A stretch of DNA of 64,000 bases from the NCBI RefSeq assembly GCF_021049245.1, contig NZ_CP088020.1, positions 2,052,001 through 2,116,000 of the forward strand, given 5' to 3'. A program made the translations under genes and the position numbers. How positions within the stretch are numbered: the first letter of the stretch is position 1; every line of letters begins with the position of its first letter. This DNA is from Radiobacillus kanasensis (GTDB taxonomy: Bacteria; Bacillota; Bacilli; Bacillales; Amphibacillaceae). The notes below the pieces were generated by a model. That model did not search any database and was not told the DNA's origin. It saw nothing but the letters and a program-made list of their open reading frames with translations. Shown piece by piece: positions 35,957-63,046 of this stretch.

Positions 35957-35985
35957 TATAAAAAAATCACCCGATTGGGTGATTT
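35957..35985 (-). terminator. recN terminator
   Basis: AATCACCC, AAT(C) and GGGTGATT form a hairpin followed by TTTTTT on the minus strand, directly at the recN stop codon. Confidence 0.85.
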
Positions 35986-37724
35986 TAGTATTGATGGGAT
36001 TCCTTAAACTTATGTGCCAGACTCAATAATTCTTTCGCGTGTTGCTTGGTAGTTTCTGTCATTTCGGTACCTGTAATCATTCGGCCGATTTCTTCTACTT
36101 TCATATCATGGGATAATTCTGTTAATTCGGTACTCGTACGATCATTGTCTACTCGTTTTTCGATGAGTAAATGCGTATCCGCCATTGAAGCCACTTGAGG
36201 CAAGTGAGTAATACAAAGAACTTGGGAACCAGCTGAAATACCATGAATTTTCTCTGCAATAGCCTGTGCTACTCGTCCACTAACTCCCGTATCCACTTCA
36301 TCAAAAATGACACTTGTAACGCCCTGGTGCTTGGAAAAGATCTTCTTAAGTGCAAGCATAATACGAGAAAGTTCTCCTCCAGAAGCTACCTTTCCGATTT
36401 CCTTTAATGGTTCTCCAGGATTTGTCGTAATTAAAAACTTCACCATATCAAATCCATGAGCATTTAAATGAACTGGAATGTCCAAGTCTACAACATCTGC
36501 TTCTTTTGCTTGCCGTTTTTGAATATCGACTGCAAATGAAGCCTTTTCTAAATAAAGGTCCTTCAACTCTTGAAGAATGGCTTCTGTTAACTGAGTTGCA
36601 GCTTCTTTCCTGAGATCGTGGAGCTGTTCCGCCTCCAAATACGTATCATGAGCAAGCTCTTTTATCTCTTTCTTTAAACGAGATAGATGAGAATCCCTAT
36701 TTTCTATTTGATCGATTTCCTCTTCGATATCTACTGCATAATCCACAATTTCCGAAACCGACTGACCATACTTCTTCTTTAGCTTTTGAATCTCATTTAA
36801 TCTTGATTCAATCATGTTAAGTCGTTCTGGATCAAATTCTAATTGATCTAATTGGTTACGGATTTCATAGGTCATTTCTTCGATTAAATAGTAATGATTC
36901 GAGAATTCCTCATGTTTATTCTTCACATCTTCATCATGTTCTCCTGCAGTTTCTAAACCATTTAAGGCCATAGACAACCAATCTAAAGCTTTTTGCTCGC
37001 CGTAGAGAGCTTGATAAGCATCTTGTAATCCTTGAAAAATTCGCTCAAAATTATTAAGCTTGTTTCTTTCCTCCACGAGCTGTTCATCTTCACTCGGATT
37101 CAGTTCCGCTGTCTGAATTTCATTCAATTGGAACTTTAGTAAATCTAATCGTTGGGCCATTTCCTTTTCATTTTCACTAAAGGAAGTATATCGTTTTTTT
37201 AACGACTCCAATTTAGAATATAATTCATTATATTCGTCTAACACCGGAAGAAACTGTACTCGGTTGTACAAATCTAATAATTCAATATGTCGCTCAGAAT
37301 CCATAAGGGATTGTGTTTCATGTTGACTATGTATGTCAATTAGGGATTTCCCAAGCTCCCTTAGTATCGCCAAGGTAACTAGTTTTCCGTTTACTCTACA
37401 GATGCTCTTTCCAGATGACGTTATTGTTCGGCTAAGAATAATCATCCCATCTTCATTTTCTACATCAATTCCTAATTGACTCCCTTTTTTAAAAATAGGG
37501 TGTTGTAGATCTTCAATCGTAAACAACCCTTCAATTTCTGCTTTGCTTGATCCATAACGGACAAATTCAACAGAACCTCTTCCACCAGTTAAAAGCTCGA
37601 CAGCATCAATGATGATTGACTTACCTGCTCCAGTTTCCCCTGTCATTACGGTTAGCCCTTCCTTAAAGGTTATGGATAATGAATCAATAATCGCAAAGTC
37701 TTTTATCGATAGTTCTGTTAACAC
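35985..37724 (-). CDS. recN: DNA repair protein RecN
   Basis: SMC-like ATPase that gathers DNA ends at double-strand breaks; 579 aa. Walker A MTGETGAGKSIIIDAVELL (~27-45), long coiled coil from ~150 to ~370, ABC signature ASGGELSRIMLALKKI (~452-467) and Walker B VIFDEVDTGVSG (~475-486). ATG at 37724 follows AGAGGTG. Last gene of the dxs-tlyA-ahrC-recN series, 70 bp after ahrC, in the order conserved in Bacilli. Confidence 0.96.
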   Translation of the reverse strand: MLTELSIKDFAIIDSLSITFKEGLTVMTGETGAGKSIIIDAVELLTGGRGSVEFVRYGSSKAEIEGLFTIEDLQHPIFKKGSQLGIDVENEDGMIILSRTITSSGKSICRVNGKLVTLAILRELGKSLIDIHSQHETQSLMDSERHIELLDLYNRVQFLPVLDEYNELYSKLESLKKRYTSFSENEKEMAQRLDLLKFQLNEIQTAELNPSEDEQLVEERNKLNNFERIFQGLQDAYQALYGEQKALDWLSMALNGLETAGEHDEDVKNKHEEFSNHYYLIEEMTYEIRNQLDQLEFDPERLNMIESRLNEIQKLKKKYGQSVSEIVDYAVDIEEEIDQIENRDSHLSRLKKEIKELAHDTYLEAEQLHDLRKEAATQLTEAILQELKDLYLEKASFAVDIQKRQAKEADVVDLDIPVHLNAHGFDMVKFLITTNPGEPLKEIGKVASGGELSRIMLALKKIFSKHQGVTSVIFDEVDTGVSGRVAQAIAEKIHGISAGSQVLCITHLPQVASMADTHLLIEKRVDNDRTSTELTELSHDMKVEEIGRMITGTEMTETTKQHAKELLSLAHKFKESHQY

Positions 37725-37794: not shown

Positions 37795-38244
37795 TTAAAG
37801 CATGTCCAACAACTGGTCTTTCATTTTTTCTGCTTCCTCTTCCGTACGACAGATAATTAAAATGGTGTCATCCCCACATATCGTACCAAGAATTTCGTCC
37901 CAGTCTAGATGGTCAATTAAAGCGCCTACTGCATTCGCATTTCCAGGTAACGTTTTCAAAACAATGAAATGGCTAGCGATATCAATTCGTATGAAGGCGT
38001 CCATAATTAGTCTTCGTAGCTTTTCTAATGGATTGAAGCGTTGGTCTGCTGGCAAGCTGTATTTATATCGCCCATCTGCCATAGGGACCTTTACGAGATG
38101 TAACTCTTTAATGTCCCGAGACACTGTCGCTTGTGTGACATTATAACCAAGGTTGCGCAACTCATCGACGAGATCGTCCTGTGTTTCGATATTGTTTTGT
38201 GTAATTAATTCTCTAATCTTGATATGGCGTTGTGCTTTGCTCAT
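37795..38244 (-). CDS. ahrC: arginine repressor AhrC/ArgR
   Basis: Hexameric arginine-responsive regulator, 149 aa, identical in length to B. subtilis AhrC. Winged helix ~1-70 with [20 protein letters not shown] (~39-58). C-terminal oligomerisation and arginine-binding domain with [15 protein letters not shown] (~105-119) and [14 protein letters not shown] (~123-136). ATG at 38244 behind GGAGGGAAAC; an upstream ATG would add a non-conserved extension. A hairpin lies between it and the preceding tlyA gene. Confidence 0.95.
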
Positions 38245-38286
38245 GGTTTCCCTCCGTTCCACCTGTCCATCTGAACCATGCAAGAA

Positions 38287-38310
38287 AATGGCTACCTATT
38301 AGTAGCCATT
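38287..38310 (-). terminator. hairpin between tlyA-family gene and ahrC
   Basis: AATGGCTAC, CTATTA (loop) and GTAGCCATT pair perfectly, followed on the minus strand by TTCTTG rather than a clean T tract, and the stem overlaps the stop codon region. It may be a weak terminator or attenuator. Confidence 0.55.
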
Positions 38311-39133
38311 AACCTCTTTTATGAAGTGTTTCATGTGCTAGATGGACTACATCGTCCATTTCGACATCTGACACGGTTTTTCCTTCTTTTTTTTCTCCCC
38401 AAATCAAATGAACGAGAAATTCAATATTTCCATCGCCACCAGTAATGGGCGAAAACGTTAAATCACGAACCTGGAACCCTTTTTGTTCAGCAAAAGAAAG
38501 AACGGACGTAAGTACTTCTTTGTGCACCCTAGCATCTCTTACGATTCCTTTTCTTCCGACTTGTTCTTTACCTGCTTCGAACTGTGGCTTAATTAATGCA
38601 ACCACATCACTATCAACCTCTAAAAGGCTTGCTAAGACAGGTAAGATTAAACGAAGAGATATAAACGATACATCAATGGAAGCAAAATTCGGTCTACCCG
38701 CTGTAAGTTGATCTGAAGTCACATAACGGAAATTCGTTCTTTCCATTACGACCACTCTTGGGTCATTTCTCAACTTCCAATCGAGTTGATTATAGCCCAC
38801 ATCAATGGCATAACAAATCTTAACCCCATTTTGCAAGGCACAATCTGTAAATCCTCCTGTAGAAGAACCAATATCCACCATTACTTTATCTTGGATATGT
38901 AAGTCAAAAACATCTAAAGCTTTCTCTAACTTTAGACCTCCACGTCCAACATAGGGAATCAGATTCCCCTTAACGGTTATTGGGATTTCCTCATCAACTT
39001 TCATCCCCGGTTTATCTAAGCGTTCTGTTTCGGAATAGACCAAACCAGCCATGATGGACCGTTTTGCTTTTTCTCTCGTATCGATTAATTGCCTTTCAAC
39101 GAGCAATACATCCAACCTTACTTTTTTACCCAT
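38309..39133 (-). CDS. yqxC: TlyA-family rRNA methyltransferase / haemolysin-like YqxC
   Basis: 274 aa. N-terminal S4 RNA-binding domain (RLDVLLVERQLIDTREKAKRSIMAGLV, split at ~5-31) and an FtsJ-like methyltransferase domain with the SAM motif MVDIGSSTGGFTDCAL (~84-99) and a K-D-K-E-type pair in VALIKPQFEAG (~178-188). Homologues methylate 2'-O of 16S and 23S rRNA or show haemolytic activity; which applies here is open. Starts 4 bp after the dxs stop, so co-expression is likely. Confidence 0.9.
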   Translation of the reverse strand: MGKKVRLDVLLVERQLIDTREKAKRSIMAGLVYSETERLDKPGMKVDEEIPITVKGNLIPYVGRGGLKLEKALDVFDLHIQDKVMVDIGSSTGGFTDCALQNGVKICYAIDVGYNQLDWKLRNDPRVVVMERTNFRYVTSDQLTAGRPNFASIDVSFISLRLILPVLASLLEVDSDVVALIKPQFEAGKEQVGRKGIVRDARVHKEVLTSVLSFAEQKGFQVRDLTFSPITGGDGNIEFLVHLIWGEKKEGKTVSDVEMDDVVHLAHETLHKRG

Positions 39134-39137
39134 ACCA

Positions 39138-41030
39138 TCAGGCCCTTTGCTGTTTACTTGGAAGCATGTTTATCACTTCAGCTTGGATCGCTTCTTTCGT
39201 CATGTTAATCTCGTTTAATAAAGCTTTTACCGAACCATGTTCAATATATTTATCTGGAATACCGATTCTTTTTATACGTTGATCTTTGTAATCGTGTTCT
39301 TCCGCAAATTCAAGGACTGCACTACCAAACCCGCCTTTAAGAATGGATTCTTCAACGGTCAAGATAGGCATCCTTTCTGTCATGATATGATGAAGCATTA
39401 GGTCATCAAGTGGCTTAATGAACCTAGCATTAACAACCCGCACCGAGACCCCTTTTTTCTCTAGCTCTTGACTTGCTTGAAGAGACATCTCTATTGTCGT
39501 TCCAAAAGTCAAAATAACTAGGTCGGTTCCTTCCTTCAATACCTCCCACGTTCCAAGCGGAATTTCCTTTAAATCGGTATCCATCGGAACACCTAGTCCA
39601 TTTCCTCTTGGGTAGCGAACCGCGATTGGTCCATCGTCATATTGAAGTGCGGTGTACACCATGTGCTGCCCTTCGTTCTCATCCTTCGGCATCATTAAAA
39701 CAAGATTTGGTAGATGTCGTAAAAAAGAAATATCAAATACACCATGATGTGTCTCTCCATCTGCACCTACTAATCCAGATCGATCAATACCAAATGCTAC
39801 ATTTAGGTTTTGACGACAGACATCATGTACGAGCTGATCATAAGCACGTTGTAAAAAAGTAGAATATATTGCTAAAAACGGCTTCATACCTTGAGTCGCT
39901 AATCCTGCTGCTAATGTCGTAGCATGTTGCTCCGCAATCCCAACATCAAATAGTCGATCAGGAAAGGCTTTTTGGAAGTTTTCTAATTTCGACCCTAGTA
40001 TCATAGCGGGAGTAATAACAGACACCCGTTTATCTTTTTCCGCTACTTTTACAAGGGTATCGCTAACTACTTGGCTCCATGCCGGTGGTGCATCGGCTTG
40101 TTTAATTTTCTCTCCTGATTCAATTTTGTAAGGGCCGACACCGTGCCACTTGTCCTTCTTATCCGTTTCAGCGTGTACGTAGCCTTTCCCTTTTTGCGTG
40201 ATAACATGAACTAGAACAGGGCCATCTGTTTTCTTCGCATATTGAAGATTTTCTTGTAAATCATTAAAATCATGTCCGTCTACTGGACCGTAATAAGTGA
40301 AACCAAATTCCTCAAATAGCATTCCTGGAACCATAAAATACTTCATACTATCTTTAACCCGCTCGGCAGTGTTTGCGAGCTTTCCACCAACTGCAGGAAT
40401 CTTTTTCAATAATAATTCGAACTCATCTTTTACTTTTTTATATTTTCCTGCACTTCTCATACGTCCAAGTGCATTGTGTAAGGCTCCCACATTTGCTGCA
40501 ATCGACATTTCATTATCATTTAGAATGACAATTATATTTTTCTTTTCATGTCCTATATGGTTTAAGGCCTCTAATGCCATACCGCCTGTCAAAGCACCAT
40601 CGCCGATAATTGGGACAACGTAGTGACTTTCTCCTTTTAAATCCCGTGCAATAGCCATACCCATCGCTGCAGATAAAGAAGTAGAACTATGTCCGGTTTC
40701 CCAGGCATCATGCTCACTTTCTGCTCTTTTCGGAAATCCACTTAGCCCCTTATACTGACGAAGGGTATCAAAATCATTGGTTCTACCTGTAAGGATTTTA
40801 TGAATGTAGGACTGATGACCTACATCAAATACAAATTTATCGGTAGGGCTTTCAAAGTGTTTATGTAGTGCAATCGATAACTCCACAACCCCTAAATTTG
40901 CCCCTAAATGACCGCCTGTTACCGAAAGTTTCTGAATTAAAAATTCTCTTATCGACGAAGCCAATTCTTCTAATTCGTGCGTGGAAAGTTTTTTTAGGAA
41001 TGATGGGTCTTTAATATTGGTCAGATCCAT
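39138..41030 (-). CDS. dxs: 1-deoxy-D-xylulose-5-phosphate synthase
   Basis: First enzyme of the MEP isoprenoid pathway: pyruvate plus glyceraldehyde-3-phosphate to DXP; ThDP-dependent, 630 aa. [16 protein letters not shown] (~150-165) with [10 protein letters not shown] is the cofactor site; [16 protein letters not shown] (~67-82) is the substrate region; [18 protein letters not shown] (~420-437) belongs to the pyrimidine domain. Clustered with ispA, which uses the pathway's product. Separated from oapA by 37 bp. Confidence 0.96.
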
Positions 41031-41067
41031 GTGTGGGATTCCTCCCCTTTTGTTAGGATTTTCTTCC

Positions 41068-41652
41068 TTATTTTTTCTTCTCAGAAGGCAATACCTTTAT
41101 TTTAAATTTTTCCTCTATAAAAGCAACTATTTTACCAGCAAAAAAAATGATATTTGTAGAAGAATGTATGGCAAAGTATTTCCCCATCGCTTTTCCGCCT
41201 ACTGTTAATGCTGCTACTAGGCTTGTTAGTATTACCGATATGAATAGATGCACAGATGAACCTTCTGAATAACCAAAACCATTTGCTAACTGTAGCACTA
41301 CAATGGCTGAAGCGGTTCCACTAATGATACCAGATATGTCCCCAATTACATCATTACAAAAGCTTGCTACTCGCTCTGCATTTCGGACAATTGCAATGGC
41401 CTGTTTTGCACCAAACACCTTTTCTGCAGCCATAGCGTGGAAAGGTGGTTCGTCTGCAGCTGCAGAAGCTGTCCCAAGCATATCAAAGAAAACACCCATT
41501 AGTACAATAAGCAATACAATAAATAGTCCCAATATCCAAACCAAGCCACTAAGCACGGAGGATGAGATAACTGAAAAAATAGCCGCTAGCACAAACGTGA
41601 TAACGGCGATACTGACGCTAAATTTAAACGATCTTTTTATCTGACTTTTCAT
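41068..41652 (-). CDS. oapA: OLE-associated membrane protein OapA
   Basis: A 194-aa integral membrane protein with about four hydrophobic segments (residues ~12-32, ~35-56, ~105-125, ~130-150). Between the second and third lies the strongly conserved polar stretch [21 protein letters not shown] and [20 protein letters not shown]. It resembles a DUF21-like fold. In Bacillus halodurans the protein at this position binds OLE RNA and brings it to the membrane; here too the gene lies 37 bp downstream of the RNA. ATG follows GAGGGTATAA. Known OLE phenotypes concern cold, ethanol and Mg2+ stress (family knowledge). Confidence 0.88.
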
Positions 41653-41689
41653 TTATACCCTCTATATCAAAAATTTTATTTATGTAGTG

Positions 41690-42308
41690 AAAGGAATGGT
41701 CATTACACAGGTGAAAATTACGGCTTAGGTCCAGTAGGTTTTCCCAATCAAGTACCGAACGTCACCATTCTGGCGGTTCCCCTTTAAACCTGATTCAACT
41801 CCGTCTCCGAAAGTTGGACTGGATTACCACTTAGTCCGTACTATAATCCCTGTACAATGTCCACTCAAGAACAGTCTAGGAGATTTCCTCAACAGCCTTC
41901 GACCGTTTCTTAGCCTCTTTTGCAGAACAGATTTCATATGGTAAAGAAAAATGCGTGAATTAGTGGCCATCTAATTTCGCATTTAATGCCATAATCCCCT
42001 CTGTTCCACTCAAGGCAGGCTACGCTGCGGATAGAGTTGCGCTTTTTGAAGCTTTTCCCAATCACACAGGTTCATACCCCATTCCATGGGAAATCTAGGC
42101 TTAGATTTCCCACAGAGATGGGCCTCCGCGGAAGCAGGGTCTTCGCCCACATGCCTTTGTGGATCGCCCCACAACCTTAACTCCCAGCACTAACCCAAGG
42201 CTGGGCGCCTCAAGCCAGCACAAGGAACTTCATCGATGTGCCCTTTGGCGGATTTTTAGGCCCGCCTTCAGAAACGGAGGACCGACTAGAATACTGCACC
42301 ATTCCTTT
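41690..42308 (-). ncRNA. ole: OLE RNA (ornate large extremophilic RNA)
   Basis: A 619-nt GC-richer, gene-free segment between ispA and oapA, exactly where OLE RNA lies in Bacillus halodurans. The minus-strand ends pair perfectly: AAAGGAATGGT at the 5' end (42308-42298) with ACCATTCCTTT at the 3' end (41700-41690), an 11-bp closing helix. Internally there are many local stems, for example GGCGGGCC... with CCGCC near the 5' end and the CCCAGCC/GGCTGGG-like pair at ~42190-42210. Length matches the ~610 nt known for OLE. The assignment rests on position, size and partner gene rather than a covariance search. Confidence 0.88.
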
Positions 42309-42364
42309 TGTATAACATAATATATCACACTAGCGTTAAATCCTCAATGAAAACTGCCTTTCAC

Positions 42365-43246
42365 CTAATAGTCTCTATTCCCTAAATAGTCGGTTAATTC
42401 ACGCAAAGTAGATCCTTCTACACCAGCTGTTTCTAAAGCATTTATCGCAAGTTGATGGTAATGATCTTTTTGCCTTTTTGCACCATCTAATCCGAGTAGT
42501 TTTGGATAGGTGCTCTTAAAATTCGTTTCGTCACTACCGACTGGCTTTCCTATTCTTGCTTCATCTCCCGTCACATCTAAAATATCATCTTGCACTTGAA
42601 AGATTAACCCTAAATAATAGCCAAACTTTTTCATTTGTCGAAGCTGTTCCTCATCAGCTCCACCTAAGTAAGCACCAATTTTGACAGCAAATTGAAGGAG
42701 TTTACCTGTTTTTAAACTATGGATTTGTTCGAGCTCTTCCAGTGTGGATTCCTTGTTTTCTGCTTCCATGTCCAATAGCTGCCCTGCTACCATTCCGTTT
42801 GGTCCACTCGCGTTGGAAAGTTCTCGAATGACGTAAACTTTCTGCTCATTGGTTAAGCCTGAATCATTCGCAATCAGTTCAAAGCTATAGGTTAAAAGTC
42901 CATCCCCAGCAAGGATCGCAGTTGCTTCCCCATACACTTTATGGTTGGTCGGCTCTCCCCTCCGGAAATCATCGTTATCCATGGCAGGAAGGTCATCATG
43001 GATTAAGGAATACGTGTGAATCATTTCTAATGCTGCAGCCACTTGGAGGGCAGAGTCAACTTTTCCACCGAACGCTTCATAACTAGCTAACAAGAGAATA
43101 GGGCGTAATCTTTTACCACCTACCGTAATGGAATACGCCATCGCTTGCTTTAATGTATCGGAAGACGTAGCGGACTCTACTTGTTGAGTAACATGATCAT
43201 TAAAGAGTGTTTGTCTCTTAGATAAATAGACCTTTAAGTCATCCAC
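42365..43246 (-). CDS. ispA: farnesyl diphosphate synthase (geranyltranstransferase)
   Basis: Condenses IPP with DMAPP and GPP to give FPP; 293 aa. First Asp-rich motif HDDLPAMDNDDFRRG (~83-97, bacterial DDxxxxD type), second motif QVDDILD region (VQDDILDVTGD, ~222-232), and GGKRLRPIL (~44-52) for IPP binding. Starts with GTG sharing a base with the xseB stop (TAGTG). Downstream lies OLE RNA, then dxs. Confidence 0.95.
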   Translation of the reverse strand: MDDLKVYLSKRQTLFNDHVTQQVESATSSDTLKQAMAYSITVGGKRLRPILLLASYEAFGGKVDSALQVAAALEMIHTYSLIHDDLPAMDNDDFRRGEPTNHKVYGEATAILAGDGLLTYSFELIANDSGLTNEQKVYVIRELSNASGPNGMVAGQLLDMEAENKESTLEELEQIHSLKTGKLLQFAVKIGAYLGGADEEQLRQMKKFGYYLGLIFQVQDDILDVTGDEARIGKPVGSDETNFKSTYPKLLGLDGAKRQKDHYHQLAINALETAGVEGSTLRELTDYLGNRDY

Positions 43247-43479
43247 TACTCTTCCTCCTGTGCTGTAAACGGTTCAAACTCACCATGTTCGTTCATAATT
43301 TGTTCCATTTGTTGTTCTACCTTGGTCAGCTTTTCACTACATAGCTTAGAAAGCATCATTCCATCTTGGTAATATTCAATGGCCTTTTCTAAAGGAACGT
43401 CCCCCTCTTCTAACTTCTCTACGATTTCTTCTAGTTCAGTCATCGCTTCTTCAAAGGATCGTTCATTTTTCTCTTCCAT
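43246..43479 (-). CDS. xseB: exonuclease VII small subunit
   Basis: 77-aa helical protein. [20 protein letters not shown] (~8-27), with the family motif [19 protein letters not shown]. Binds XseA to form the single-strand-specific exonuclease. Acidic, two-helix coiled coil. Its first 17 bases overlap the xseA 3' end and its stop overlaps the ispA start, showing tight translational coupling. Confidence 0.95.
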
Positions 43480-44824
43480 CTTCTGTTTCCTCCTCTAAAC
43501 CCCATACTTGACAATCTAAAACCCCATCGCGCAGTCGTACATGAATATGTTCTCCAGGGTTTACTTGTTTTGTTGTGCTAAGCACACTTCCATCTTCTTT
43601 ATAAGAAATCGAATAGCCCCTTTTCATCGTGTTTAAAGGATTAAGAATGGATAACTTATCAAGGAGCGATGTAAATTCCACTTGTTTAGCCACTTGGATT
43701 CTTTGGAACGCACGATTCGTTCGGTTTATCATTTCGTCCAATTGCTTTTGACGATCTAGTACTCGTTTTCGGGGATCAAGCTGGATAAACCGTTTTTGTA
43801 GGTGATTATGGTCAAACCGCTTTCTCTCAGTTGTATCTTTCAGTGCTTTCCCTAATGCATCTACTGTTCGATCTAACTCTTGTTCTTTTTGTTTCAACAA
43901 TTGTTCCGGATAGCGAAACGCATAAGATTTATTCGCTCTTGAAAGTTTTTCCTGAGCTTGATTCAGTTGATTTCGTAACAATCTTATTAACGTTTTTTGG
44001 GAAGACGTTATCTTTTCTTTCAACTCTTCTTGAGATGGTACAGCTATTTCTGCTGCACCTGTTGGGGTTGGAGCACGCATATCCGCGACAAAATCACTAA
44101 TGGTGAAATCGGTTTCGTGTCCTACTGCTGATATAATCGGAATAGTGGAAGCAGCAATCGCCCTAGCCACCCTTTCTTCGTTAAAGCTCCAAAGTTCTTC
44201 AATTGAACCCCCACCACGACCTACAATAAGGACATCGAAATCCCCAATCTCATTCGCTTTGTAGATTGCCTTTTCAATGGATGGTGCAGCAGAATCACCT
44301 TGTACCATAACAGGCAAGATTATAAGCTTTGCAATCGGATACCTTCTTCTAACAGTGGTGATAATATCTCGAATAGCGGCCCCTGTTGGCGAGGTAATCA
44401 CACCTATTTGTTTAGGAAAACTAGGAATAGCCTTCTTTCTACTAGGATCGAATAGCCCCTCCCTACTAAGTTTTTCCTTTAACTGCTCATACGCCATGTA
44501 GAGGGCTCCAATTCCGTCGGGCTCCATACTATGAATGTACAACTGGTATTGACCTTGTGGCTCATAAATAGATACTTCACCTACAATAAGAACATTCATG
44601 CCATTCTCTGGCTTGAATTTTAAAAAACGGTTTTGACTTGCAAACATGACCGCTTGAATCCGTGATTTATCATCTTTTAAGGTGAGATACATATGACCTC
44701 TACTATGTAGAGTGAAATTCGAAATTTCTGCCTTTATGTACACTTTTTTCAAGTGCTTGTCCATTTCGAACTTTCGTTTCAAATATTTTGTTAAAGCGCT
44801 CACCGTTAAGTACTGATCATTCAT
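43463..44824 (-). CDS. xseA: exonuclease VII large subunit
   Basis: 453 aa. N-terminal OB fold (~1-100: [30 protein letters not shown]) and catalytic domain ~120-320 with [14 protein letters not shown] (~141-154), [18 protein letters not shown] (~196-213) and [17 protein letters not shown] (~227-243). The remainder is coiled coil followed by a C-terminal GYSI segment. Degrades single-stranded DNA in repair. Located 53 bp after folD. Confidence 0.95.
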
Positions 44825-59116: not shown

Positions 59117-60877
59117 TTATAATCCACATTTTAATTGAGCATTACAATTCGTGCAGGTATTGCAGCCTCCGATGTCTTCCACTGTTCCTTTTCGGCAAAC
59201 TGGGCAAGTATCCCCTACTTCAGAACCGATCGTCACTTGTGTCTTCTCTAGTTCATGGACGGTATCTACCAGTACAACATGTGGTTTGTTAGAAACTGTT
59301 TCTTCTTTTTCTTCAAAGCTGTTTTCTTCTGCTTTTAGAGTCAATACTTGTGTATCACGGCTTCCATCTACATAAACCGTTCCACCTTTTGCTCCTCCAT
59401 TGTACAGACGACGGTAAACACTTTCTACCTGTTCAACGGAGTAACCTCTAGGAGCGTTAACTGTTTTGGAAATAGAGCTATCTACCCAATTTTGAATGAC
59501 ACACTGAGTGTCAGCGTGTGCTTCAGAAGAAAGTTCCATCGCTGTTACAAACCAGTGTGGAAGCTTGTCCGGATCTTGTCCGGGATTGTTATCTAAAAAT
59601 TCTTGTACGATATCAGCTTTTACTTCAATGAACTTTCCAAGACGACCGCTTCGGTAATAAGAGAATGAGAAGTATGGTTCTAATCCAGTACTTACCCCAA
59701 CCATCGTGCCAGTGCTTCCTGTAGGAGCAACGGTTAAGAGGTGAGAGTTACGAATTCCATACGATAAAATATCCTGACGAATATCTTCCGGCATTTTTTT
59801 CATATAACCAGTTTGGATGAAATTTTCTCTTAATTGTTGTGTTTCTTCTTCTGTTTCTCCGATTAAAAATGGGAAGCTGCCCTTTTCTTTGGCAAGCTCT
59901 ATAGACTCACGATAAGCAGTAGTTGCAATCGTTTCAAAGATTTCGTCCACAAGCTTGTTTCCTTCCGTGGAACCATATTCTGTTTCACAATAGATTAACA
60001 GATCGTGAAGTCCCATTACACCAAGTCCTACACGACGTTCTCCAAGGGCTTGCTTTTTATTTTCTTCTAAGAAATATGGAGTCGCATCAATGACATTGTC
60101 CTGCATGCGCACACCCGTTTTCACGGTTTGAATTAACTTATCGAAGTTTACAGATTTGTTTTCTTTGTCAGCAACCGAAGCAAGGTTAACGGCAGCCAAA
60201 TTACATACAGAGAATGGAGCCAATGGTTGCTCTCCACAAGGGTTTGTTGCCACTACTTGTTGTCCGTATGCTTTTGCATTGGTCATATCGTTCGCATTGT
60301 CAATAAAGAAAATTCCCGGTTCAGCCGAATACGTTGCGCAAATATTGATAAGGTTCCATAGCTCTTTCGCCTTTACTTTGCGATAAACACGTACAGGGTA
60401 TCCCATTTCTTCCCATTTACGGACATCGCCAACTTCATGCCATTTTTCGTTATAGTCTTTCATTTGTTCCTCTGTGTAGCTCTCTACATAAGGGAATCTT
60501 AGTTCATATTCAGCGTCATTCTCTACCGCTTCCATGAAATCTTTGGTTAAACAAACAGAGATGTTTGCACCTGTTAAAAATTCAGAATTATGAACGCTAT
60601 AAGTTCCTCCTGTTTGAAGCTTTTCTTCTGATTCCTTAATCGCTTGTTCTGGGAAACCACCTAAGCCAGGCATCGCTTTATAATTGACTACACCTTGATA
60701 GATATCTTGTTCAGTCGGTGTCAGCGGCGTAAATTTCAACTTGTCTTTCGCGAGCTGTTTAATTAATTCTTCTTCGGAGTTTTCAATAAGGAATCTAAGT
60801 ATTCTCGGATTTTGCATTTTGGAAATGATAAATTCCATTATGTCTGGGTGCCAATCCGCTAACATGATCATTTGGGC
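59117..60877 (-). CDS. nrdJ: B12-dependent ribonucleotide reductase NrdJ, exon 2
   Basis: C-terminal 586 residues of the class II reductase; the reading frame continues from exon 1 (62114-62908) once the intron is removed, restoring RRG-AQMIMLADWHPDIMEFI. Visible features: NPCGEQPLAPFSVCNLAAVNL (split at ~192-212), the radical-site loop and IDATPYFLEENKK; the GTIMVG-like APTGSTGTMVG motif at ~378-388; redox-active C-terminal cysteines and the zinc-like CPVCRKGTVEDIGGCNTC (~562-579). A TTG at 60880, 3 bp before the exon, could give a spurious start but is intron sequence. Confidence 0.93.
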   Translation of the reverse strand, partial: AQMIMLADWHPDIMEFIISKMQNPRILRFLIENSEEELIKQLAKDKLKFTPLTPTEQDIYQGVVNYKAMPGLGGFPEQAIKESEEKLQTGGTYSVHNSEFLTGANISVCLTKDFMEAVENDAEYELRFPYVESYTEEQMKDYNEKWHEVGDVRKWEEMGYPVRVYRKVKAKELWNLINICATYSAEPGIFFIDNANDMTNAKAYGQQVVATNPCGEQPLAPFSVCNLAAVNLASVADKENKSVNFDKLIQTVKTGVRMQDNVIDATPYFLEENKKQALGERRVGLGVMGLHDLLIYCETEYGSTEGNKLVDEIFETIATTAYRESIELAKEKGSFPFLIGETEEETQQLRENFIQTGYMKKMPEDIRQDILSYGIRNSHLLTVAPTGSTGTMVGVSTGLEPYFSFSYYRSGRLGKFIEVKADIVQEFLDNNPGQDPDKLPHWFVTAMELSSEAHADTQCVIQNWVDSSISKTVNAPRGYSVEQVESVYRRLYNGGAKGGTVYVDGSRDTQVLTLKAEENSFEEKEETVSNKPHVVLVDTVHELEKTQVTIGSEVGDTCPVCRKGTVEDIGGCNTCTNCNAQLKCGL

Positions 60878-62113
60878 CAAAATGTTTCGTTGATTCGTTA
60901 CATCAACTCTCTAAGTCACCCTAGAGTTCAGACCATATCTTCCACTCACCTAGAGTGTCCTCGCACTTCGAAATCACTTGATTTCTACTCTACTCACTTC
61001 CGCTAAAAAAGCGTGTTTTCGATGGTCGTTGAACCTTCCCCTTTTAAGGGGCTTGGCTGCTGATTGTCTTTTTCCACTTGTTGTTTTTAAGCATTCACGC
61101 GTACCGTTTCCAGTTACGTTGTAGCCAACAAGTCATTTATGATGCATTTTATCGATTCAAAATTATTTAAAATGTCATCTTCCCAAAACCGTATAATTTT
61201 GTAATCATTTCTCAGAGCTATCTCATTTTTATCCCGATCAATTTTAATACGACCTAATTGCCATTCAGCTGGATCCGGGTAAAATTTGGGGTTTGCATGC
61301 CAGTAGTCACCATCACACTCAATAATTACTTCTTGATTAGGAAGTAGAAAATCAAACTGCCTGTTTTCAAGAATAAACGAATATATATAGCGAATGTTCC
61401 GTTTAATAAGATAGGCTTCTACAATTTTCTCTATTCGTGTTTTCTTAAACTCTTTTCTTTCCATCTGTTTTAGAGTAGCTTGTCTGATCTTATTAATGGT
61501 ATCTTCACTGTAAATTCCTTTTTTACCACTATTCCAAGAAGGAGTTTTATTTTTCCTTCTAGTTTGTGCAGTTTGTGTAATAATTTTTTTAAAATGTTTT
61601 TCCTTTTCATTTTCATCCATGGATTGATGCCATAACTTAGTAGATTTTGACCTTTGAATACTTTCACAATTGTCACTACATGTTTTTGTTTTCCTGTGGG
61701 GTCTTGTATCTGTGTCAAATCTTTTCCCACATGTGATACATGTCATCGGGTCACTTTTTGCACTACATGACCTAGAACAATATTGTTTCGGTCTTCCCCT
61801 ATATAAATCAACTAAGTTATAACAAAGTTCATAGGAACATTTTAAATCTTTGTCGGAATAGTAATATGTTTTAAGGTATTCGTTGAGCATAATTGTATGT
61901 TTTTTTAAGTGTGTAGTAAACCGACCCTGTTTGTTATGAGAAAACTGATATCCACAAATTTTACATTTTTGCGGTAACTTTGCATCATATGGTTTCATGT
62001 TTTCACCTCAAGTTAAAAGAAATTTTATACTTGGTGTTATTACATGAATTACCAATAAAGAGTTTCCAGCAATTCACGAGGTTTTTTTAGAGACGAGGCA
62101 CTTAAGCTGATTT
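60878..62113 (-). mobile_element. group I intron in nrdJ with homing endonuclease gene
   Basis: 1236-nt intron on the minus strand. Exon 1 ends in U (CGTGGT) and the intron ends in G before GCCCAA, as group I introns require. P1: exon GACGUGGU pairs with the guide GCCUCGUC (62099-62092), giving a U-G wobble at the splice site. AATTGCTGGAAA (P/Q region) lies near the 5' end. R element GGTTCAACGACCATC (61035-61021) and S element GAAGATATGGTCT (60942-60930) pair as P7 (GACCAU/AUGGUC). ATCAGCAGCCAAGC precedes R as P6/J. The open frame sits in a peripheral loop between the Q and R elements. Confidence 0.92.
61114..61998 (-). CDS. intron-encoded EDxHD/Vsr-like homing endonuclease
   Basis: 294-aa, Lys-rich DNA-binding protein. 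Residues ~10-110 hold three Cys/His clusters (CKICGYQFSH...HLKKH; CSYELC...CSRSC; CITCGKRF...CSDNC) that look like zinc fingers; ~165-180 a NUMOD-like IYSEDTINKIRQATLKQ segment; ~195-285 a nuclease domain with FDFLLPNQEVIIECDGDYWHA (split), RIKIDRDKNEIA and IIRFWEDDIL. The last resembles the EDxHD family related to very-short-patch repair nucleases (e.g. I-Bth0305I), with Asp in the place I expect His. ATG behind AGGTGAAAAC. Confidence 0.82.
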   Translation of the reverse strand: MKPYDAKLPQKCKICGYQFSHNKQGRFTTHLKKHTIMLNEYLKTYYYSDKDLKCSYELCYNLVDLYRGRPKQYCSRSCSAKSDPMTCITCGKRFDTDTRPHRKTKTCSDNCESIQRSKSTKLWHQSMDENEKEKHFKKIITQTAQTRRKNKTPSWNSGKKGIYSEDTINKIRQATLKQMERKEFKKTRIEKIVEAYLIKRNIRYIYSFILENRQFDFLLPNQEVIIECDGDYWHANPKFYPDPAEWQLGRIKIDRDKNEIALRNDYKIIRFWEDDILNNFESIKCIINDLLATT

Positions 62114-62908
62114 ACCACGTCTTGATCCACCTTGTTCAACAAGGTGAGTTAGTTTTGCAATATCATCTAACCATGAAACAGATCCTGAAGATTTCCCATT
62201 TACGCCTCTAGCTAACGTATTTCTTGGACGCAGGGTTGAACCGTTTGTTCCAACTCCCCCACCACGACTCATAATTTCCATCACTTGCTTTCGGTGATCC
62301 GAAATACCTTCACGGGAATCTTTCACGAAAGGCATGACATAACAGTTAAAATAAGTAACATCTGTATCCGAACCAGCACCATATAGAACTCGTCCAGCAG
62401 GAATGAAATTCATATTAGATAATTCATGATAAAAGGAATCGAACCATTCTTTTTGTTTCTCTTCTGTTCCTTCCACGTTCGAAAGACCAGTCGCATTTCT
62501 CATCGCGATTTGTTCATAGAATATTTCAAGTGGCTTATCGATCACATCCAACGACCGTGTTACAACACCCGTTTCTATTTCTTTCTCATTATCCAAGACA
62601 GACACAAACTCTTTATCCACTTGGATATCAGCTTGTTTATTTTCCCAGTCAATAGATTTTACAAATCCAAGACCTCTTGCGGGAAATTTAGGATCTGCTT
62701 TTACCGTTAAGACAACAAAATCCCCTGTCGTTAAGGTTAGCTTTTCCGTATCTTTAAATGCATACCGATCTAACATAACTAGACGAGAAACACCCTTGTG
62801 GGTCAGTTTCATATCGCTCGTAATCGGATGCACTTGTGGAAATAGACTAATATCTTTATTCAACCTTTCGACATTAATCTCCATAGAAACATCAGTAACA
62901 GCGCTCAT
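62114..62908 (-). CDS. nrdJ: B12-dependent ribonucleotide reductase NrdJ, exon 1
   Basis: N-terminal 265 residues of a class II (adenosylcobalamin) ribonucleotide reductase, reducing ribonucleotides to deoxyribonucleotides with or without oxygen. Motifs: NMNFIPAGRVLYGAGSD near ~200, FNCYVMPFVKDSREGISDH (~215-233), EIMSRGGGVGTNGSTLRPR (~240-258) and the exon end VEQGGSRRG. Together with exon 2 the protein is 851 aa, normal for the family. ATG at 62908 with AGGGGAG ~9 bp upstream; longer frames to 63028 lack a site. Read without splicing it stops 3 codons into the intron. Confidence 0.92.
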
Positions 62909-62999
62909 TTGCACATCTCCCCTCAATCCAAATATATTCATTTCGTTATTCTTGGGTGTTGATTCTTTACTACTTAATTTAACACACCCTTGACTAAAG

Positions 63000-63046
63000 A
63001 AACAATATATAGTGTCTGAAAAAACCAAAATTACTATATGTTGATT
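63000..63046. promoter_or_regulatory. tandem NrdR boxes upstream of nrdJ
   Basis: Box 1 AAACAATATATAGTGT (63000-63015) matches the NrdR consensus acaCwAtATaTwGtgt at all core positions. Box 2 at 63031-63046 (core CTATATGTTG) has one core mismatch. The boxes are 31 bp apart start to start, three helical turns, as is typical for NrdR pairs. No cobalamin riboswitch was recognised in the 428-bp gap (62909-63336). Confidence 0.75.

Follow-up and report, generated by a model that had tools for sequence, protein, structure and literature searches.

A complete Bacilli-type OLE RNA locus with its membrane partner gene oapA in Radiobacillus kanasensis

A full-length OLE RNA beside oapA

Within a 64,000-nucleotide stretch of the Radiobacillus kanasensis genome (contig NZ_CP088020.1, positions 2,052,001 to 2,116,000; hereafter the window, in whose own coordinates positions are given), we found a full-length OLE RNA gene (ole, 41680-42318, minus strand) followed by oapA, the gene for its membrane partner. 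We consider it highly probable that this locus encodes a complete Bacilli-type OLE ribonucleoprotein (RNP), comprising an RNA with closed ends and a tail, OapA next door and OapB, OapC and bS21 from elsewhere in the genome, and acting, by homology, as a membrane stress and Mg2+ device. The Rfam OLE covariance model (RF01071; curated threshold 50 bits) matched 42318-41680 at 523 bits (E 1.6e-150) over the full model (1-616), which was the only match in the genome, while the same search matched 0 of 14 named control genomes. The initial annotation had read a 619-nucleotide, gene-free, minus-strand block as an OLE RNA with OapA as its partner and had allowed for a covariance search without a significant match, an outcome that this score clearly removes. 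From terminal helix to terminal helix the block spans 41690-42308 and is indeed 619 nucleotides long; no listed open reading frame (ORF) of at least 60 amino acids overlaps it on either strand, and its guanine-cytosine content (0.481) exceeds that of oapA (0.385), ispA (0.416), dxs (0.405) and the window (0.393). The block is a real OLE RNA locus, with ispA as upstream neighbor and oapA as the next gene downstream of ole, and these results support its reading as OLE with an OapA partner. The locus is an ordinary member of the known OLE family, of the Bacilli type.

Compared with RF01071, the locus matches the whole model, has oapA downstream and conserves the letters of both dimer-contact loops (A-rich L4 and palindromic L9.3), while differing by a 16-nucleotide loop insertion relative to the consensus, by a terminal helix that the Rfam model leaves unpaired and by a UACAUA hexamer that the Rfam 3' end lacks. 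From the alignment, we read an AAAAA loop (42253-42257, minus strand) as the putative L4 and a GGCC loop (41965-41968, minus strand) as the putative L9.3, the places of the dimer contact and the kissing loop described in PMC12286853.

Terminal helix and UACAUA tail

The ends of the RNA are joined by a perfect 11-base-pair helix, AAAGGAATGGT (42298-42308) with ACCATTCCTTT (41690-41700) on the minus strand, exactly as first annotated. Evaluating a sequence-only alignment of 120 OLE loci (this one, 30 from the family and 89 from the phylum; 1 of 121 was dropped), we found that 86% of cells in 12 helix pairs held standard pairs against a maximum of 69% in 500 column shuffles, in which kinship among loci is uncorrected, and that 396 cells were changed on both sides (shuffle maximum 181). 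Two weaker measures only reached or barely passed the shuffles (double-change pairs 11, maximum 11; further pair types 40, maximum 39), and sliding the partner strand by 1-2 columns lowered pairing to 33-43%. In published OLE models, domain 2 includes a P1 (PMC12265935), which we assume to be this helix.

Shortly 3' of the helix stands the hexamer UACAUA (41681-41686, minus strand). Searched for 8-36 nucleotides from the start of the helix's 3' arm, it occurred in 31 of 31 family loci (dinucleotide shuffles: mean 2.4, maximum 8), in 8 of 30 phylum loci (mean 0.6, maximum 3) and in 20 of 59 phylum loci retrieved only after the motif had been noticed (mean 1.2, maximum 5). Control intervals in the same three sets held it in 0, 0 and 2 loci further downstream and in 0, 0 and 0 upstream, and the OLE body contained the hexamer in 2 of 120 loci; the exact form was absent from the search interval in 61 of 89 phylum loci. 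Because reverse primer KH014 for H. halodurans OLE1-637 contains its complement (PMC12054373), the hexamer is part of the experimentally studied OLE RNA, and OLE is reported to be processed at its 3' end in that organism (PMC11332333). We infer that UACAUA is likeliest a 3'-end signal or a protein-binding tail.

Other roles for the hexamer fared less well. As part of an oapA leader it is disfavored by its spacing, which, among loci that all have oapA, varied less to the helix than to oapA (standard deviation 2.3 versus 14.5 in 31 family loci, 4.8 versus 29.8 in 28 phylum loci), and it lay within 80 nucleotides in 0 of 7 leaders of OapA paralogues. Nor did an intrinsic terminator appear to replace it among the 89 phylum loci, since hairpins within 75 nucleotides occurred in 17 of the 61 loci that lack the motif and in 5 of the 28 that have it (Fisher p 0.43); for hairpins followed by a T-rich tail the figures were 11 of 61 versus 3 of 28 (p 0.53). 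Pairing with a TRTG stretch upstream of OLE was feasible in 15 of the 26 family loci with TRTGN, with no compensating changes seen in the listed variants.

Partner genes and distribution

The five components of the H. halodurans complex (OLE, OapA, OapB, OapC and bS21) are all encoded here. Outside the OLE locus, where the initial annotation had suggested looking, we found both OapB, a KOW protein (22.8 bits, cut-off 22.3) between map and infA, and OapC, a YbxF-type L7Ae protein (60.6 bits, cut-off 22.1) between rpoC and rpsL, with these neighbors named from our reading of the ORFs; bS21 is likewise encoded elsewhere in the genome. Among 146 family genomes, OLE was present in 107 and OapA in 107, the same genomes among the matches listed, with 19 unlisted in both, so that on these matches OapA occurred only together with OLE; in the phylum sample, OLE was present in 217 of 299 genomes. 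In one relative (G061; L083, 1036-1621) the OapA frame is split into two overlapping ORFs beside a 508.6-bit OLE, through either decay or sequencing error.

OapA and its putative ion site

The 194-amino-acid membrane protein noted beside the block (oapA, 41068-41652, minus strand) starts 37 nucleotides downstream of the terminal helix. Its predicted model is helical, with residues 37-179 forming a CNNM-like fold and one further helix N-terminal to this core, and, on this model, OapA would be a small membrane protein of CNNM-like fold. Its closest named relative is the OapA of Radiobacillus deserti (92% identical). Residues D101-x3-D105 (DxxxD), D57, K154 and K158 are invariant in 37 chosen homologues, and the DxxxD aspartates correspond to those changed in the PM1 mutant, D100/D104 in H. 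halodurans (PMC9723947).

Unlike the CNNM/CorB Mg2+ transporters (MtCorB, MpfA), OapA lacks CBS and CorC domains, has the extra N-terminal helix, carries the DxxxD that PMC11332333 describes as absent from CNNM and, on the alignment, has a lysine at the place of Glu111, which in MtCorB coordinates Mg2+ (PMC8242095). Three hhalign runs pair Glu111 with OapA Lys154 and the CNNM proline with Gly157, at probabilities below 2% and in a register from which a plain pairwise alignment differs; because these probabilities are so low, the Lys154 register is drawn from the shared G-x-x-x-x-K spacing and the fold match. Absence of the CNNM proline has already been published. Asp57 sits at the place of CNNM Ser25 and could serve instead of the Glu. 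Spacing had also raised the suspicion that DxxxD occupies the CNNM Ser71/Asn position, which we rejected, as hhalign places Ser71 close to OapA residues 111-114, with DxxxD falling inside or next to a gap that precedes it.

A transporter role for this protein has been put forward in PMC11332333 and PMC12265935, in which OapA is a CNNM-kind Mg2+ transporter whose regulatory domain is OLE RNA, standing in for the CBS and CorC domains that MpfA has; we regard this as plausible, if somewhat short of probable. Besides the predicted fold and the published Mg2+ sensitivity of knock-outs (PMC11332333), gene counts point the same way: OLE carriers had a median of 1 CNNM gene per genome (n=107; at most 1 in 61 of 107) and OLE-less genomes a median of 3 (n=39; at most 1 in 3 of 39; Mann-Whitney p 5.6e-8, kinship uncorrected), in agreement with the published anticorrelation of OLE and CNNM genes (PMC11332333). 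Some OapA may have been counted as CNNM in carriers, which would weaken this contrast, and by our reading it is weak within genera holding both kinds. Weighing further against transport are the pairing of the Mg2+-coordinating Glu with an invariant lysine, at the low probabilities given above, and the missing proline; because of this lysine we are undecided on Mg2+ transport by OapA.

Possible too, and held more tentatively, is that OapA serves as a CNNM-fold RNA anchor or sensor whose canonical Mg2+ site has changed from Glu to Lys, with transport, if any, running through another site or other proteins. The invariance of Lys154 and Lys158, their presence in the OapA paralogue as well, and the disease-causing E357K of human CNNM2, a Glu-to-Lys change at the matching residue (PMC8242095), are consistent with such a role, whereas the alignment register is unproved, Asp57 may compensate, and, according to unpublished work mentioned in PMC12265935, certain MpfA-family proteins rescue OLE phenotypes and the converse also holds.

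Paralogues of OapA, with DxxxD where read and no OLE beside them, were seen in 7 of 146 family genomes (G096, G111, G139, G104, G018, G059 and G079; L076-L082), all of which also carry OLE-oapA. Identity was 46-48% in five uninterrupted copies, the frame being interrupted in G059 and G079, and a further genome (G071) held a partial match of 59 residues. Of the 146 family genomes, 10 each contain a single terminator-like RNA element with a CCGGGGTGGTAGCCGG hairpin (one mismatch allowed; L145-L154). In six of these genomes the element precedes the OapA paralogue, and the other four have no paralogue (G088, G025, G044 and G113); one example (L080) had no Rfam match above threshold.

Promoter and gene neighborhood

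A promoter-like TTGAGG-17-TATATT with an upstream TG (42319-42347, minus strand), found by consensus scan, is the probable own promoter of ole, and in 23 of 31 family loci OLE is preceded by similar TTGAG...TATATT elements with an upstream TG, a count made without shuffle control. The minus-strand gene order is folD, xseA, xseB, ispA, ole, oapA, dxs, an S4/FtsJ gene, argR and recN, with some names taken from gene order; Pfam identified a tetrahydrofolate dehydrogenase among the neighbors. Upstream, on the same strand, lie ispA, a polyprenyl synthetase (42365-43246; PF00348, 217 bits), and the exonuclease VII subunit genes xseB and xseA (43246-44824; PF02609, PF02601); downstream of oapA follow dxs, for 1-deoxy-D-xylulose 5-phosphate synthase (39138-41030; PF13292, 402 bits), and an S4/FtsJ methyltransferase-type gene (38309-39133; PF01728, PF01479). 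The gene at 35985-37724 (minus strand; PF02463 RecF/RecN/SMC and AAA_23) is presumably recN, by gene order and general knowledge. Between the S4/FtsJ gene and recN stands argR, the arginine repressor gene (37795-38283, minus strand; PF01316, PF02863); unpublished work that PMC12265935 cites names its product as a partner of OLE.

Elsewhere in the window, a group I intron (54.4 bits, cut-off 50) at 60909-61178 and a 294-amino-acid ORF at 61114-61998, homing-endonuclease-like by our reading, both on the minus strand, interrupt what we read as a ribonucleotide-reductase-like gene, whose two pieces lie at 62102-63028 and 59117-60880.

Discussion

By analogy with H. halodurans and clostridial OLE work, OLE RNA here would be transcribed as part of the ispA-dxs cluster and probably from a promoter of its own as well, with both ends closed by the 11-base-pair helix and the conserved UACAUA tail following. 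The RNA would dimerize through L4 and L9.3, bind OapA at the membrane and be joined by OapB, OapC and bS21, encoded elsewhere in the genome, as published descriptions of OLE dimerization, of OapA bringing OLE to the membrane and of OapB, OapC and bS21 binding OLE suggest (PMC9723947, PMC12265935, PMC11332333, PMC12286853, PMC12054373). Bound to the membrane, the RNP may serve in stress responses and Mg2+ homeostasis, loss of OLE in H. halodurans being reported to cause sensitivity to cold, ethanol and Mg2+ and poor growth on some carbon sources (PMC9723947, PMC11332333). Because all known components are there and seem intact, the same device as in H. halodurans is very likely at work in R. kanasensis, and we favor a membrane OLE RNP with a role in sensing or adjusting divalent ions and stress.

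Several observations weigh against this view. The consensus scan gave 4 promoter-like sites against a shuffle mean of 4.8, not above chance alone; and OapA scored 18.4 bits against Pfam CNNM, under the curated cut-off of 28.4. Because the genome also holds one MpfA-type transporter with CNNM, CBS and CorC domains, OapA is not its sole CNNM-fold protein. OLE carriers with one such transporter are nevertheless common (52 of 107). H. halodurans, unlike this genome, is described as having no MpfA gene (PMC11332333).

That the block is a mere cis-regulatory leader of oapA and dxs, with no separate RNA, is very improbable: it does sit inside the gene cluster with oapA close downstream, and no terminator-like site was found at 40950-43300, but H. 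halodurans OLE was detected as a separate, abundant RNA of ~630 nucleotides (PMC9723947) and the terminal helix, which covaries, joins the two ends of the block into a single unit. A decaying, inactive copy is scarcely credible, as the split oapA frame of G061 has no counterpart here, the OLE match is full-length, OapA retains every residue invariant among the 37 homologues, and the only sampled genome of the same genus carries an OLE of 524 bits together with an OapA of 92% identity.

Beyond the OLE RNP itself, a joint proposal, that UACAUA sets or protects the OLE 3' end in many Bacilli as a processing site or protein-binding tail and that the invariant lysine of OapA replaces the Mg2+-binding Glu and precludes plain CNNM transport, strikes us as rather unlikely to hold in both its parts.

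OLE, a large membrane RNA that occurs in many Gram-positive bacteria, ranks among the biggest conserved RNAs of bacteria for which no biochemical activity is known. It may also be the first membrane-spanning RNA (PMC12265935). One further intact copy adds little alone, and its value lies in testable by-products: the UACAUA tail motif, absent from the Rfam model; the putative charge swap at the CNNM ion site, which bears on whether OapA transports Mg2+; and the OapA duplicates without RNA, which could separate the protein's role from that of the RNA.
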